From Fennellomyces sp. T-0311 (taxonomy: Eukaryota > Mucoromycota > Mucoromycetes > Mucorales > Lichtheimiaceae), in NCBI GenBank assembly GCA_025266875.1, contig JALLLT010000027.1, positions 372,001 through 436,000 of the forward strand: a stretch of DNA of 64,000 bases, in the 5' to 3' direction. Numbering within the stretch: position 1 is the stretch's first letter; every line of letters begins with the position of its first letter. Made by a program: the position numbers and the translations under genes. Below are positions 5,738 to 31,384 of the stretch, one piece after another. The notes beneath the pieces were generated by a model. It did not search any database. It had not been told where the DNA came from and saw nothing but the letters and a program-made list of their open reading frames with translations.

Positions 5738-6158
5738 TAAAAGTGTCCATTTTGAAACCTGATCGGTAGGTTTTGCGTTATTCGTCGTCGCACTTTCTGA
5801 AATGGGACCAAACCCACAAATCGCAGTTAATGCAGGGATAATCGGTTCAGCCGGCGTGGACAAAGAGAGGTCTGTGCACTGTACATCGTCAAGCGGACTT
5901 GTCGGTATGGCAGTAGTGTGGATCAGTAACAAAGACCAGCAAAAAAAAAGCTACTTTTCAAGCCATACAATGCCTTTATTCCTCTTGCACACCGTCTGCT
6001 GTGGGTCATGGCCTGTTGCTGAGGCTGTAAAACGTCATAGCCTGGGTGACTGTTGCTACATGTGAAAAAAAGGGGGACTGCTCGCTTTCAAAAAGATATA
6101 AAAGGAGGTCAGAATCGGCAGCTTTTTTCTTTCTTTTCACAATAATCCCAAGAGAAAG

Positions 6159-6431
6159 TTATGCTCGAGGGAAACCACCAGGGTTTGCAGTAGCGAGATG
6201 GCACAGACAGATGAAGGGATAAACTTCCCCTTGCTCTTTGTTTGGTTGTGCTTCATTACTGTTCAAATCCAAAAATACCGAAGCTGCTTTGGTGGCTGCT
6301 GGTCTTCCTTTGGACGGCTTGTCTTCTTTGGAGACTTGATCAACCTCCTTGGAGACTTGCTGCTCTTCTGGGGACTGTAGCCTTCCTTGTGGAAGAAGCT
6401 GCTTCGGGGGATTATGGGACTGGTGGCCCAC
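6159..6431 (-). CDS. hypothetical Lys/Ser/Gln-rich 90-aa frame in left arm
   Basis: The minus-strand frame has a hydrophilic composition with an internal repeat (QVSKEVDQVSKEDKPSK), which looks more protein-like than the opposite strand. The same frame is intact in the right arm at 14593-14865. No family is recognised. It lies downstream of the Hsp70-like debris on the same strand and may be another fragment of a decayed gene. Confidence 0.2.
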   Translation of the reverse strand: MGHQSHNPPKQLLPQGRLQSPEEQQVSKEVDQVSKEDKPSKGRPAATKAASVFLDLNSNEAQPNKEQGEVYPFICLCHLATANPGGFPRA

Positions 6432-6689
6432 CTATCCAATCAAACAAGAGAACGAAAAAAAAACTTAGTGGTTTCCTGAAGAAGGCCTTTAAATTGGCTT
6501 GTTGTTCAAGTGACCCGTTCCTGTTGGTGACGGTCACTCAGGGTCTCGATTCAATGAAGTCATTGCTTTTTTCCCACATGATCTGCGCGCTTACTGCCTG
6601 ATCGACGCGTTGTTTTTGCCACTTGCTGCTTACATCGGTGCGATTTTATCCTAATAAAGTACAATCCGTGTCCGTTCCAGCCCTGCCCA

Positions 6690-23624: not shown

Positions 23625-26263
23625 ATGGCCGAGGAAGAAGCCAAATCGACGACTGCCGTATCGACGCTTTTTGTGGGCAAGATCCCACCAACGGCCACGA
23701 GCAAAGATCTCGAAGAGTTTTTTGGCGAGATCGGTCCCCTTCGCAACTGTTTCGTCGTTGCAGACAAGACCAAGGCCAAGGTCAAGGAAGACGATCCCAG
23801 TTTTCGCAACAAGGGCATTGGTTATGTCCATTTCGCTGTAGCTGACGATGCCAAAGAAGCCTTGGAAAAGTTGAAAGACGTCAAATTCAAGGGCAAACGA
23901 CCACTCAAGATGGAATTCGCTCAACGCAAATCGTCCAGCAAGCGACCCAACAGCGAGCAAGAAACGCCGGCACCCAAAAAACAGCGTATCAATAAAACTG
24001 GCATCACCAAGGCAGCGCGTCTTATTGTTCGCAACCTTCCGTGGAAGTACAACGAAAAGGATCTCAAAGAGTTGTTTGGAAAGCATGGGCCGATCGGCGA
24101 CGTCCAATTGCCTCGCAAGTACCCCAACGGTCCTCTGCGTGGCTTTGCGTTCATCCAGTTTCACAAGGTCAAAGATGCTGAAAAGGTACCTTGCGGTTTG
24201 TTTGTAAGGGTTGTTTTATGATTCTGACAACTTCCTAAAATAGGCAATGGCTGCATTAAACGCGACGGAACATCATGGTCGAACAATCGCTGTTGATTGG
24301 TCGTTGTCGAAGGATCGATTCAATCAAGTCGAGAAAGCCGAGGAAGCCCCTACGGAAACAAAGGAAGCCAAGTCAAGCAGCGAAGAATCGGAGGACGATT
24401 CATCGAGCGATTCATCGAGCGACTCCTCCAGTGACGAAGAGTCAGAAGAAAGCGACAATGATGCAATCGTACCTGATATCGAGCAAGAAGCCGACAGCGA
24501 CGAGGAGGAAGAGGAAGACGACGACGACGACGACGACGAGCTCGATGTTTTACAGCAATTTGAAGGCGAGGAAGAGGAGGAAGATAGTGACGATGAAGAG
24601 GAGGATGACAGCGATGAGGATGAAATAGATGAAGATGAAGAAATGGCTGAAGTCGATGATGAGGACGACAACGAAGAAGAGGACAGTGAAGAAGAGGACA
24701 GCGAAGACGTTGAGATGAAAGACGTCAAAGCCAAGGAAAAACCCAAGAAGCAGCGACTTCCTGACGCATCCGAAGGCGCCACTCTGTTTGTCCGCAACTT
24801 GCTGTTCGAATCGACCGAAGAGGCTCTCAAGGAAATGTAAGTGCGGCGGAGAACGATGTGCAAATGGACATTAACCGGGTATTAGGTTCAAGCAGTGGGG
24901 TCCTGTTGTTTACGCACGCATCACCAAGAACAAAGATACCAATCTGTCGCGCGGCAACGGTTTTGTCCTGATGAAGAACAAGGAAGACGCCGACAAGATT
25001 TTGGCCGAAGTCGAACAATTCCGTAAAATGTCACTGCGCGACCAAGATGACGACGAAGACGCGTCCGACATGCTCATGTCCAACCGTGAAAAGAAAAAGA
25101 AGGGTCTTGTCTACGACAGTATATTGACACCGGACTCTGGCAGCGGATTGGGCTTAAAGTTCACGTTGGACGGTCGTGTATTGGACATCACTCGGGCTGT
25201 GCAACGCAACGAAGCTTCCAAGCTCAAGGAAGAAAAGGCTGCTGTGCGAAGAAAGGAAGACAAGCGCAACCTTTATCTGATGCACGAAGGTGTGATTTTC
25301 CCAGGTACACCCGCGGCAGCCAACCTGTCAGAAAGCGAGCTTCAAAAGCGACAAATGGCGTTTTCGATGCGCAAGCGACTGCTCAACAATGACCCGGCTC
25401 TATTTATTTCCAAGACACGTTTATCCATCCGTAACCTTCCTATCAGCGTTGACGACAGTGACTTGCGGAAAATCGGCCGCGAGTGTATTCAAAAGTTCAA
25501 GGATCAGGTCAAGCAGCGCCTGCGAACGGATCTGACGGCGGAAGAGAAGGAAGAAGGATGGCAATACTTGGCACGTGTCCAACAAGCCAAGATCATTCGA
25601 AGCAAGGACAGAGTGGATAGCGCAACATCCAAACTTCGTAGCAAAGGTTACGGTTTCTTGGAATTCTCAACACATGCCCATGCACTGGCTGCACTGCGAT
25701 ACCTCAACAACAACCCAGATCTGTTTGATGGAAAGCGGTTAATTGTTGAATTTTCCATCGAAAACAAGGACGTCATCGAAAAACGGAAAGCCCAATCGGC
25801 TGAACGTGCTGCTGCACGCGCCAAGGCAAAGACCGAGAGCAAGGACAAGTCAGATGGCAAGCCCGGTTACAAGTCTAAAGGCAAGCCTGATCACAAGAGG
25901 GACCGTGCAAGTCGTGATGGCAACTCTGGAAGAGGTCGTGATGGCAACTCTGCAAGAGGTCGTGATGGCAACTCTGCAAGAGGTCGTGGTGGCAACTTTG
26001 GACGAGGTCGTGGCGGCAAGTTCGGAGGAAACCGAGATGACAAATCTGATGAAAGCGGCGAGTCGGGTGGAAACCGAGGGTTCCGTGGTGGCCGAGGAGG
26101 CGGATTCCGTGGAGGAGCTCGCGGAGGAAGTCGCGGTGGCAAGTTTGGTGGAGATCGAGGTGGCCGCGGTGGCCGAGGCGGTCGCGGTGGTCGAGGAAGC
26201 GGATTCCGTGGAAGCCGAGGCGGTAGAGGCGGCCGAGGAGGCGGATCCCGTGGTAATGCATAA
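23625..26263 (+). CDS. NOP4: nucleolar RNA-binding protein Nop4/RBM28
   Basis: Exons 23625-24185, 24244-24836 and 24886-26263 give 843 residues. Four RRM domains are visible. RRM1 is at about 14-95 (STLFVGKIPP, GIGYVHFA). RRM2 is at about 128-205 (RLIVRNLPWKY, RGFAFIQF). RRM3 is at about 362-440 (TLFVRNLLFES, NGFVLMKN). RRM4 is at about 560-680 (RLSIRNLPISV, GYGFLEFS). A long Glu/Asp/Ser acidic region separates RRM2 and RRM3. The tail from about residue 730 is rich in RGG and RGR repeats. Nop4 acts in the nucleolus in 27S pre-rRNA processing and 60S assembly. Yeast Nop4 is about 685 residues; the extra length here is the acidic insert and the RGG tail. Intron phases agree across all joins. 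Confidence 0.93.
25905..26000 (+). repeat. coding minisatellite of about 30 bp in NOP4
   Basis: Roughly three copies of a 30-bp unit encode GRGRDGNSA-type repeats at the start of the RGG-rich tail. They are in frame and read through, so length variation would change only the number of RNA-binding repeats. Confidence 0.8.
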
Positions 26264-26406: not shown

Positions 26407-26911
26407 TTAGTTGTCCTGATTCGGCACAATGGTATAGTCTGCCCTGGACTGTCGCTCCTACAAGGCCATAAGTGGTCTGCTATCTTTGCCTTAAGATAAT
26501 GCCATTACCTGACGCCAGCGTTGGTAGTGAGGCTTGAGTGCGGCACAGGCAATTAGGCCGACCGTCAGTATAAGAAACAGACACACAATGGATTCATCCT
26601 TGTACGAGTCGCGTGCTACACAATTTGTTCAGTTATCCAGGAACAGCGCCAAAGAGGATCTTTGACATACCAAAACAAGTGGTGCGGAAGTCGTTGCTAG
26701 GACACGTTTCATCGGCAATACCATCGCACATTCCATCTTTCACATTGTCTAGGCAGAATTGCTTGGTGCAATTGCCGCATGGTTTTGCGTCCAACATTGG
26801 AAGCTCAAAGATGGTGCTGTTGGATCCGCAAAAACATTTGCAGAACAAAATGGGGTTGGCCGCTTGACCTTGGGTAAAGGCCATGGCGAACAGCAATAAG
26901 TATTGCAGCAT
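26407..26911 (-). CDS. small Cys-rich type I membrane protein
   Basis: Exons 26911-26671, 26615-26509 and 26457-26407 encode 132 residues. A signal peptide (MLQYLLLFAMAFTQGQA) precedes an extracellular domain with about ten cysteines (FCKCFCGSNST, CGNCTKQFCLD, CDGIADETCPS). A single membrane helix follows in exon 2 (SIVCLFLILTVGLIACAAL), with a short cytoplasmic tail (HYQRWRQ...YTIVPNQDN). Both introns restore frame exactly. I know similar small proteins in Mucoralean genomes but no function for them. The start codon lies only 82 bp from the 3' end of the Fanzor-like gene, on the same strand. Confidence 0.8.
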
Positions 26912-26993
26912 AATTTTCGTTTTTGTACAAGGTAGAAAAATCAGACGTTCTATACTACTTTAAATCCACCGTCACGGGGGAGACAAAAAGCAC

Positions 26994-29900
26994 CTAGCAC
27001 TGGTGTTCCGTCAATCGCTCCATGGAGGCAGCGAGTTGGAAGGTTTGGTCGTGGGAGCGGGAGAAGGGTGGGATGGGTAAATTGTTGTGAGATACAGCTT
27101 TCGAAAGGCCACTGACAGCGATGTTGAATGATGCTGCTGCATCACGGTTGAAAGTATTCGCATGGTGGAGAGGACAGTCCGGATTCGTGCACCTGATGGC
27201 GCCGTTAGCTGCCTTGAGCTTTCCATCTACTCGGTACTTCTGCAGTTTTGTCGGTGCATGGCATTCAGGGCATGTCTTAGATGAGCGATATTCGTTGGTG
27301 ACGATGACGGTATCTTGCTTGCATGACTCGAGAGCCTGTCTCAGTTTTGCGTTCGCGCCTCTAGCATGCTTCTTGATGCGACTGTTGACTGCACGATATG
27401 CGCCATAGAAAGCCAGTGTTGCTATCGATTGCTGAACGCGCCAAGATGTTGCAAGCTTTCGGTGCAGGATAAAGTGACGGATCTCCCTCGTCCTTGACTC
27501 TTTATTCCTCCTGTTGCCGTCGTCCTTTTCCTTGTCGCGTTCGCGTCGATTTGTATGCTTTGCTTCGAATGTCGCAGCCTTTTTTATTGACGATGTATAC
27601 TTTTTTCGCTTTGAATGGACGTGTTGTCTGTTGCGGCGGTTGCTGCTCAGGTGGTGGTGGTGTGGTGTACCTTCGCACAACGCTCATCACGGCGTCAAAG
27701 GTGGTGGTAACCGCGGTTGCCGCGACAACTATCCCTGGATCGATCCCAATGACACCCAGCGGTTTCTGGCTGTTGAAGCTGTCAATGATCGTCTTCTGGA
27801 TACGTTTCTATAAACACAGTGATAAGCATATATATAACGCGCCTTTGATCCAAGCGCTCTACCTGTTCTATTGTTTCTTGAAGACGAACTGTTTTGTTCG
27901 ATTTTAACGCTTGCATTCGAAACAGCTCGGCACGCAAATCCGCCAGCTTCCTTTGCTTCAATGAGATGTCCTTTTCAAATTCCTGGACAGTTCTTCGCAC
28001 CGCCCATAGCTTCGCGTAAACACCACGATCCCAATACTTCTTCCCCATGTTCTTTTTCCCGTTCCGGAATGTACGACCTAGGTCTGCACGCTCGATCTCG
28101 TACTTATTGCACCTCTTGCGTACCGATGTGAGCTCGGCCTGTAGCTCCTTGACCTGTTTCTCCTTCTCCTCCAGAAGCTGTTGGTTGAGATTTTGGTCGA
28201 TGTTAGCCCTTTTCGACCCAGATTCTGCTGCTGAAGGGTGCGGCCTTTTCTGCCCAGCTGTCTTGATCGCCTTCTTCTTTTTCCGCTTCCGAGCCTTCTT
28301 GGCCTTTCCTTTGCCAGTCATTCCCTTACCAGTCTTGTTCTTTGCTGTAGGGTGCGTCACCACAGCCCTACCCTTCCCTTTGCGAACAGGAACCACTTCT
28401 TCCGCACTGGAATCAGAGGAGCTAGATTCTTCATTTTGATCGGCAGACAGGACCCTGCTTGCTTCTTTCTTTGCTTGGCTAACATCGTTCGGGTCAGCGA
28501 TCTTGTGACCACGACCAAGCACCCGGACCTGATACTTGTTAACATAGGTCAAACAGTGCTTGAAGACAAGGTTCTTGGTTTTGAGAGCTTGTGTTATCTT
28601 CGGTAAGCGGAAAAAGGCACCGAAAACGTCATCGCGCCTCTCTGGCAGGCCCGCCTCTCGTTTGCTGGTGACTTTCCCCTTGGCGCTGGTAGATGGGATC
28701 GTGTAAGTACCGGAGAATAATGTGTAAAGCACATCTGCTCCAATATGGATGGAGTGGTCTTTGTAGTCGACGTACGGGACGATCGCCCAGATATTCTGTT
28801 GCGGGACCACCAATTTAACGACAGCGTTTGTGATATAAGCCAGAGGGACGCATTCATGCACTGACAGAACATCCGCTTCGTCGTCATCGTCGTCCTCCGC
28901 GCTATCGTCTTGATCTGGTTCTGGGTGGTAGTATGGTCGAACTGCGTTGGCGATTTCGGCAGCAGCCTGGCACTGCTTATCTGTTAGGTCGCTCCCCTTG
29001 TAGGCTGTATCGCGAATTGCTCTGGCAGATACCTGCTTGGAGGTGGTGGACAGGACTCGTTTGATAATGGCTACCAGTGCTCGAACTTGATGGACGGTAA
29101 CTTCTTTTTCTTGGGCATCTACGGCAGACTCTTCCACTTCTTCCTCGTCGGCGTCGTTGGTCTTTGTACTAATCGGATTGTCCTTGTCAAGATTCTTAGA
29201 AAGAGTGTAATCCTGTTTGTGCTTTTCTTCTTTCTCGGCTGCCTCTTTGCTACTAGGAGCTTTTAATGAACGGGGCAGCTTGTTGAACTCCCGCAGAGCA
29301 TTGTTCATGGCACCGTTGAAGGCAAAGTCATCCTGCTTGGTGACAACACCAGTATCCACGATCGCCTTGCGCGATTCATGAAAAACAAATGATTCCATCT
29401 TTTCGTTCGCGCTTGAACCGACGCACCCTAAGCATAAAACATAACACGTTAATTGATGGAAACGGAAAGTGTACACTGCGATGACGTACCTGACAGTATG
29501 TTCGAGAAATGTTCGAACTGATACACGCGGGCATCTTCCAACTTGTCCAGATCTGGTGGTATTGGTGACACATGGACAGCCGTTTTCGCCTCTGGTCCGA
29601 AATCAAAACCAGGTACCAGAACTTGGATATCGAAAATTGTGTCGTCGACAACAGTACCGCACAGTCGGGCCATTCTTCCGTTGGCGATCATATCAGTCAA
29701 AGCTGATACCCCGTTCGAAAGTTGTGCCATACACCGACCGACGCGCAATTTCTCGTTCTCCAATCGGTTCAAGAACCCGTCGTAGGCGATTTCCTCTCGT
29801 AAAATAGACCGCAATGAAAACGTCATAGTTTCTGTAAAAGTTGCTGTTTCGCGCATTGAAGTGTCTTTGTTCTTGACCGCTTGGCTACCTTCGTCGTCGG

Positions 29901-30931
29901 TTTCTTGGTCATCACCGTTATTGGCTCCTTGATCGCTGTCCTGATCACCCATGACTTCGTCCCACGTACATGAGTCCAAGAAACCCTGTACTTCCTCATG
30001 CATCCGATACCCTTCACTTTTGAAGTATTGAAATCGGTCGTAATCTTTATAACTTTTTATCCGGTCAGCGAACCAGTTAGGAGCCACGTCCATGGAATGC
30101 CGTTTTAGGATGGATGCTTGGATCTCGTCATAGATGCGAGGAACGTTTTTTCTTTTGTCGTGCTTGTTGTGCAGCTTTTCTAGCATCTTGACAGCTTTTT
30201 GCTTGCTTTCCGCTCCTTTAAATGCCTCTTCAATCTCTTGACGATGGAACCGCCTGACCCCGGCCTCAAACTCGCTGATGATCTGGTCTCGGGTAATACC
30301 TGTCCGAGACATTGTCACCTCTTCGTTGTCCACGTCATCCTCATCATGGCCTGTAATCGTGGCTACAGTAGATGATGGTGGAGCTGGTGCGGGCGTTGGC
30401 TGACACTTTACCTGCTTCGGAGGCTTCAAAAGAAGTCGGTTTGAGTATATCATTACTTTAAATGGTTAGTCAAAAGCCAACCTTGTACTCGGGCAAGTCG
30501 CAAAGTTGGAACCATTTGGTCTTCTCGCCAAGGTATGAGTCAGTATGCTGCAGCACACTAACAGTTGTCTTGCCAATTGGATTGATCACCTGCGCATGCT
30601 TTCTGGTGGAAAAGTAGAAAACACTCAGATCCTTTTGATGAGCAATGGCTATGAGCAACATCAACCCTTTTGCTTTAGTTGGTGGCGCGGTTCGCAAGAA
30701 AATGGCATGATCAGAGTCACCGGAAAGCAGCCGTGTCAATGCCGTGGATTGGAGAATATCCATGCCGCTTCTTTTAAGGGCCTTGGTTGTTTTGCGCAAG
30801 TTCTCGGCACCGGGAACAAAGTTATGCAGACCACTGAAGGCGTTCTCCAGCCGGTTGGCTGAGATGGGTGGTGCTTCGATCTGTACCTCTTCCGAATGAC
30901 CAAAGATCTTCTGTACAAGCGTAGGATTCAT
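26994..30931 (-). CDS. Fanzor-like RuvC protein (eukaryotic TnpB homologue), probable single frameshift
   Basis: Proposed exons are 30931-30482, 30423-29490, 29427-27863 and 27807-26994, about 1,253 residues. The C-terminus has the TnpB/Fanzor order. RuvC-I Asp is in GVIGIDPGIVVAATAV (about 27740). A long basic linker follows. RuvC-II Glu is in VTNEYRSSKTC (27293). The zinc ribbon is CPEC plus CTNPDC. RuvC-III Asp is in NRDAAASFNIA (27143). A lysine-rich coiled-coil segment precedes RuvC-I, as in the remnant at 2043-3330. Residues 1 to about 980 have no domain I can name; GAFFRLPKITQALKTKN may be wedge-like. Within the last exon the frame shifts once. Dropping one T from the T6 run at 27580-27585 joins both halves, whereas no good intron does. 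Known Fanzors are RNA-guided DNA nucleases; activity here is inference. Confidence 0.8.
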
Positions 30932-31384
30932 AGTTGGAAAGAATGTGGTACAGCATGAAACGCGAAACGCGAAAAAAGAGAGTCGATGGAAGCACGCAAC
31001 TGGGCGTGTATTTTATTTGGTACTTCCTTATTAAGTTAGGCTAACGTTGACATCCAAGCATTGTTACTTTCATTTGTAGTATCTATCATAATGGTCAACC
31101 CTATTGGCCATCGCTATTGTCTCAGTATGCGAACGAGGCACACGCTTCATGTATGGTATGCACAGATCAACTGTTTCTGCACACGAAATGCTATCGGCAA
31201 CCAATGATATACATAGACGGTGCAACCCACCAGCTTCCGTTTAAGTAGAATATCTCGCAGTAAAAAGCGTGACAGACACCCAGCCAGCCGTATCGACCAA
31301 TCCCTAAAGGCTGTTTCAAACGCCGTTAGAACGCCTAAAAAGGAGAAAATTTATTTTTTTTAAGTCTGTACATATATAATGGTA
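30932..31384. other. intergenic
   Basis: This sits between the start of the Fanzor-like gene and the 3' end of the myosin gene, both minus strand. No coding signal is seen. It should contain the promoter of the Fanzor-like gene and, if the element is bounded, one of its ends; no obvious terminal repeat was found. Confidence 0.4.

Follow-up and report, generated by a model that had tools for sequence, protein, structure and literature searches.

Fanzor1-type elements of Fennellomyces sp. T-0311 and their probable mobilisation by Helentrons

Fanzor1 proteins are already known from fungi of this kind, and so are Fanzor1 genes carried by Helitron2 elements. For instance, Bao and Jurka described CRe-1, CRe-2 and CRe-3 of Chlamydomonas reinhardtii as Fanzor1 elements on Helitron2, with target duplications tied to a non-standard 5' end (PMC3627910). 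Here, we analysed a stretch of 64,000 nucleotides of Fennellomyces sp. T-0311 (Mucorales, Lichtheimiaceae; contig JALLLT010000027.1, positions 372,001 to 436,000; hereafter the window), the minus strand of which carries a Fanzor-like gene. This gene probably belongs to a decayed, non-autonomous element mobilised by Helentrons, whose sole gene would encode a very large (1357 aa when open) RuvC nuclease of Fanzor1 type, related to Cas12 and TnpB. This reading is based, on the one hand, on the common ends, copy number, insertion motif, conserved RuvC and zinc motifs and purifying selection and, on the other hand, on another element of this genome, which has the same left end and terminal inverted repeat and codes for Rep, a PIF1 helicase and an EEP endonuclease.

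As far as the description in PMC3627910 goes, CRe-1, CRe-2 and CRe-3 resemble the family of the window copy (family A) in having an intron-bearing Fanzor1 gene with no Rep or helicase of their own, a 5' end in common with an autonomous rolling-circle element, integration on the 3' side of T4/T5 and variable-length duplications found only with a non-standard 5' end. Family A differs from this description by its fungal host, the EEP endonuclease of its partner, the longer CC-TTTTT motif, a 3' hairpin located upstream of the 3' inverted repeat and a 1357-aa protein. MCi-2 of Mucor circinelloides, compared here by its description in PMC3627910, also has a Mucorales host, combines a constant 3' Fanzor part with 5' parts that differ, and shows imprecise 5' ends and target site duplications, but is left unclassified there and has a constant ATAATT motif and, in one subfamily, a partial Crypton gene. 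The proteins SpuFz1 (Spizellomyces punctatus) and PpFz1 (Parasitella parasitica) have, like family A, the RuvC Asp, a Glu located after the last RuvC strand and before the TNB zinc ribbon, and the RD. However, they are much shorter (633 aa and a chain of 722 residues, respectively), detectable similarity is limited to the C-terminal region, and SpuFz1 is carried by a TA-flanked element with 33-bp inverted repeats, unlike family A. Finally, Helentrons and DINE-1-like elements, as presented in PMC4067079, recall the situation found here by a Rep-helicase with a C-terminal endonuclease (in the partner), subterminal inverted repeats and a T-rich site, whereas that presentation reports no target duplication, against 2-9 nt in four of 12 family A copies.

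A dispersed family with a Fanzor1-type gene

The profile PF07282 (Cas12f1-like TNB) matched 17 places in the 45.6-Mb genome, five of them above the curated cut-off; the window place falls just below it (25.4 bits versus 26.3, E = 6e-4). These matches are more than chance. Comparison of the window stretch by blastn with 9-kb pieces around the 17 places distinguished 13 members of family A, including the window copy and the 5'-truncated L014, and four members of a second family, B. The window-type left end was found in three family B places, the fourth being cut off by the fetched stretch. Both ends are present in 11 family A siblings showing 94.6-97.4% identity to the window copy: the left boundary lies between ...CTCCTTTTT and AGGCGTTCTAACGG..., and the right one between ...GTATAGAACGTCTGATTTTT and the flank. 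Genome-wide, the left 226 bp match 35 places and the right 226 bp match 23, of which 17 at 97% identity or above. The element is young, multicopy, dispersed and recently active. The earlier note had regarded the gene as a settled resident, a view that had to be abandoned since it is one of the 13 family A places of this dispersed element.

An open five-exon gene encoding 1357 aa was found in three of 12 copies (L012, L010 and L009); the stop counts of the window copy, L017, L011, L013 and L019, in which one intron pattern was not located, cannot be compared, nor can those of L022, which our script could not splice. All full copies retain introns. Differences from L012 in its coding sequence comprise 236 synonymous and 328 replacement changes, for 169 and 395 expected (ratio 0.60, p = 2.5e-9), and the RuvC part alone gives a ratio of 0.52 (p = 0.001). 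This points to purifying selection on the coding region, including its RuvC part.

The motifs reported previously in the fixed order of TnpB and Fanzor proteins (RuvC-I Asp, Glu next to a zinc ribbon, second Cys pair and RD) were all located, and their spacing fits the motif D-X(125,275)-[TS][TS]-XX-C4-X(5,50)-RD given in PMC3627910. The open sibling L012 reads D-X151-[SS]-KT-C; the Asp-to-[TS][TS] spacing, 151 residues in L012, is 145, 130, 173 and 190 in the related proteins P0002, P0003, P0004 and P0001, and in each of the five the RD follows the first Cys pair by 38 residues. According to PMC11423790, the catalytic Glu of Fanzor1 sits on a loop between RuvC strand 5 and the TNB. At this position, NEYRSSKTC of family A and SEDYSSKTC of family B align with DEYKTSSVC of SpuFz1 and DEFRTSSFC of PpFz1. 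Furthermore, a C-terminal family profile matched the solved structures of Spizellomyces Fz1 (E = 3e-4) and Parasitella Fz1 (E = 0.025) with Glu, zinc ribbon and RD aligned; with a wider family profile, SpuFz1 reached E = 8e-5 and the Parasitella protein was no longer listed at E of 1 or below. Among the profile matches to the PDB, the proteins of Fanzor type were Fz1 only. The Fanzor/TnpB-type identity proposed in the earlier note is thus supported by sequence comparison. No relevant family of NCBIfam reached its cut-off, and successive database searches returned one, then 12, then six relatives (one of these new), none of which is a well-known Fanzor.

An alternative is that the protein is no longer an RNA-guided nuclease and acts as a DNA-binding or element-regulating factor through its N-terminal part of about 1100 aa. 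Searches with the window pieces assigned no Pfam family at cut-off to these N-terminal ~1085 aa, and they are conserved end to end in a 39%-identical protein of Circinella umbellata (P0001, full-length, 1415 aa). In this protein, the sequence DKYGTSKTC has a Lys at the expected catalytic Glu, the other motifs being retained. Nevertheless, Asp, Glu, C4 and RD are all retained in families A and B and in the Circinella protein P0004, and the selection seen in the RuvC part also argues against loss of the nuclease. We therefore consider this alternative unlikely.

Insertion sites, element ends and a probable Helentron connection

The elements are inserted 3' of CCTTTTT. The left-end pattern matched 26 places, 24 of which, with five Ts (T5), were counted, all with the insertion 3' of the T run; T5 was itself the counting condition and the preceding Cs were not. 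Two places were left out: L042, which reads CCCTTGTTT, and a match in L056 that does not correspond to a left end. Before T5, C occupies position -1 at 23 of the 24 places, position -2 at 20 (CC or GC/AC with C) and position -3 at 15.

Duplications were scored as at least 2 nt common to the bases after the left T5 and to the right flank, in the 12 family A copies with both ends, L011 and L017 not being independent since they have their left flank in common. Duplications are absent from all seven copies having a standard left end and present in four of the five whose left end is non-standard, with lengths of 9, 8, 6 and 2 nt. For family A, 13 of 200,000 permutations reached the sum of common bases, and 24 of 200,000 did so when three family B copies were added.

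The common left flank of L011 and L017 (also L066 and L067), which lie on different contigs, extends over at least 2.7 kb at ~100% identity and contains a 325-bp remnant of a family B right end; the right flanks differ. Rolling-circle read-through past the left end was envisaged and then dropped, as identity is lower, at 97.8%, between the elements than between these flanks. The arrangement may result from a duplication, ectopic recombination, gene conversion or a fault of the assembly. In addition, L019 carries ~480 bp (5966-6450, plus orientation) inserted in the right end of the family A copy with a ~15-bp duplication (TTTAAAGTAGTATAG), and a 143-bp inverted stretch between RuvC-I and RuvC-II.

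A candidate autonomous partner with common ends, L056, codes for a Rep protein of 632 aa (Helitron_like_N, 1e-23) and, in a different frame, for a protein of 1147 aa with a PIF1 helicase (5e-29) and an Exo_endo_phos domain (4e-10), i.e. an EEP endonuclease. On its 3' side, an inverted repeat GTATAGAACGCCT near the end is followed by a hairpin GTTTCGAGAAAC and a T5 end. The same left end occurs at C179:25413, 1.7 kb ahead of the Rep domain in a 1796-aa open frame, and upstream of a Rep domain at C172; for the C179 element, no right end was located in the 801 bp retrieved. In the Fanzor element, the asymmetric inverted repeat reads AGGCGTTCTA at the 5' end and TAGAACGTC near the 3' end, with a 5' hairpin that is weaker than those of L056 (AGGCGTTC/GAACGCCT) and C179, where it is preserved through changes on both arms (AGCGTTC/GAACGCT). 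By comparison with the account given in PMC4067079, the features of L056 and C179 are those of Helentrons. With 44 PF14214 matches, the genome is rich in Helitron-type Rep genes, which are of different kinds and whose open frames reach 1796 aa; the left end was looked for at three of the matches.

The element might instead be moved by another machinery, either target-primed retrotransposition or an unknown DNA transposase, the common left end being a captured fragment. Target-primed insertion would likewise account for variable-length duplications with microhomology at the 5' junction, and the right end is unlike that of L056. However, introns in every full copy disfavour an RNA intermediate, and the left end, inverted repeat and CCTTTTT are common to elements encoding Rep, helicase and EEP. 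Moreover, the split between standard ends without duplication and non-standard ends with duplication is that described for the Helitron2 Fanzor elements CRe-1, CRe-2 and CRe-3 (PMC3627910). Such a mover is therefore quite improbable, and mobilisation by Helentrons is preferred.

Candidate guide RNA and proposed cycle

The region 26900-27300, put forward in the earlier note as a possible source of guide RNA, fits the right end of the element. The last 63 non-coding nucleotides of the element have four variable sites among 11 copies, and 3.4% of 63-nt windows are as invariable or more so. According to PMC10711439, the RNA scaffold of published Fanzor1 elements is predicted to include the inverted repeat and the target duplication, and T5 at both ends of the element fits this predicted role.

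In the cycle that we propose, Helentron proteins would act in trans by nicking the right end and the CCTTTTT target, and rolling-circle replication would place the element 3' of CCTTTTT. An RNA transcribed from the right end and extending into the right flank would load the Fanzor protein, which would recognise a T-rich target-adjacent motif (TAM) equal to the insertion motif and would cleave the matching empty CCTTTTT-flanked site on the sister or homologous chromosome. This cleavage would favour copying of the element back into the empty site. Transposition in trans by Helentrons, like the guide RNA, TAM and nuclease activity of the Fanzor, is a putative step of this cycle.

Several observations weigh against mobilisation of a guided nuclease by Helentrons. 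In family A, the 3' inverted repeat lies 6 nt from the end and the hairpin is upstream of it; an arrangement in which 20-30 bp separate the repeat from the end and the hairpin occupies this interval, present in L056, is absent, so that the right end is unlike both L056 and the Helitron2 descriptions. No matching duplication of at least 2 nt was found in L019, B_L024 and B_L023, and no duplication in the 5'-truncated L014. The first 3.1 kb of L056 have a single full-length match in the genome, and transposition was not observed. For the RNA, Rfam gave no match and structure has weak support, the diverged right-end alignment offering little usable covariation. For the protein, besides the Lys of P0001, phmmer with the full 1357-aa sequence retrieved nothing from the PDB; Foldseek with a low-confidence family model (mean predicted local distance difference test, pLDDT, of 55), although it placed SpuFz1 on top at E = 2e-3, gave no match at E of 0.001 or below, and a second, worse model (pLDDT 47) was unused.

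Given this 3' arrangement, the Fanzor element is best described as probably Helentron-mobilised with an atypical right end, and not as a canonical Helentron. Moreover, families A and B, which are only ~41% identical in their C-terminal protein regions, have the same 83-bp left end (95%). This tentatively suggests, with somewhat less than an even chance in our view, that the Fanzor gene and right end behave as a module acquiring Helentron left ends.

The window copy and biological significance

Compared with its siblings, six of 11 of which have a single identical 270-codon frame spanning all three RuvC motifs, the window copy is a near-complete but broken gene (Table 1). The qualification 'near-complete' given in the earlier note is literally true, but the RuvC-I frame (27502-27807) differs from the RuvC-II/III frame (26994-27683), and ~370 bp of the siblings, made of coding sequence and one intron, are absent. 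Because of its broken frame, this copy should not give a full nuclease. Since its ends are present, it could still be moved, or supply guide RNA, in trans. The ordinary genes around it and its short introns might evoke a domesticated, expressed host gene, but the broken frame, the internal deletion and ends identical to those of dispersed siblings make this extremely unlikely and led us to reject it.

Table 1. Features of the window copy (positions in the window)
Feature	Position	Strand	Remarks
Whole Fanzor element, family A	26936..31336	-	Left end 31336, right end 26936; sharp common ends by blastn of 17 genome loci
TTTTT of insertion motif (CTCCTTTTT)	31337..31341	-	Directly 5' of left end; taken as target-derived
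Left-end cassette, ~80 bp	31256..31336	-	Common to family B (95% over 83 bp) and Helentron L056 (78% over 90 bp)
5' asymmetric terminal inverted repeat AGGCGTTCTA...	31323..31336	-	Part of short hairpin
Exon 1 of Fanzor-like gene	30482..30931	-	ATG at 30931
Intron (GT-AG)	30424-30481	-	
Exon 2 of Fanzor-like gene	29490..30423	-	
Intron (GT-AG)	29428-29489	-	
Fused remnant, exons 3+4	27863..29427	-	~370 bp of siblings missing at ~29283, in frame
Intron (GT-AG)	27808-27862	-	
Last exon	26994..27807	-	RuvC-I, RuvC-II Glu, C4 zinc ribbon, RuvC-III; frame broken between RuvC-I and RuvC-II; stop codon ends at 26994
RuvC-I motif GIDPG	27744-27729	-	
NEYRSSKTC	27296-27270	-	Glu just ahead of C4 zinc ribbon
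Second Cys pair CTNPDC	27191-27174	-	
NRDAA	27149-27135	-	Final RD
Short hairpin CCCCCGTGACGGTGG	26966..26980	-	By folding; upstream of 3' inverted repeat; candidate part of guide-RNA scaffold
3' asymmetric terminal inverted repeat GTATAGAACGTCTG	26942..26955	-	6 nt from right end
Right flank, putative guide	26915..26935	-	From right-end position and Fanzor logic as published in PMC10432273

A small open frame rich in Cys, whose start resembles a signal peptide (26633-26911, minus strand), begins 24 bp past the right end of the element, so that the insertion falls in its promoter or leader region. On the plus strand, a 462-aa open frame (24875-26263) has a strongly glycine/arginine-rich, RGG-like C-terminal tail.

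Our literature search, in which supplementary tables were not included so that the family may be listed in large surveys, retrieved no paper pairing Fanzor with Helentron, or either with Fennellomyces. As far as this search shows, the new features are a partner bearing an EEP endonuclease, the occurrence in a fungus of the CCTTTTT motif with its left-end rule, and the protein size. The protein, with its long N-terminal part, is roughly double the size of the Fanzor1 proteins with solved structures.

Fanzors ride on many unrelated transposons. Here, one fungal genome combines a recently active Fanzor family, some copies of which are open, with a defined motif for insertion and a candidate for the autonomous partner. 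It is possible to name beforehand which TAM is expected, which guide each copy would carry and which proteins would act as helpers, and the insertion motif of the element can be linked, in a testable way, to the expected target motif of its nuclease. Hence, the idea that RNA-guided cleavage may help rolling-circle elements to persist becomes directly testable.
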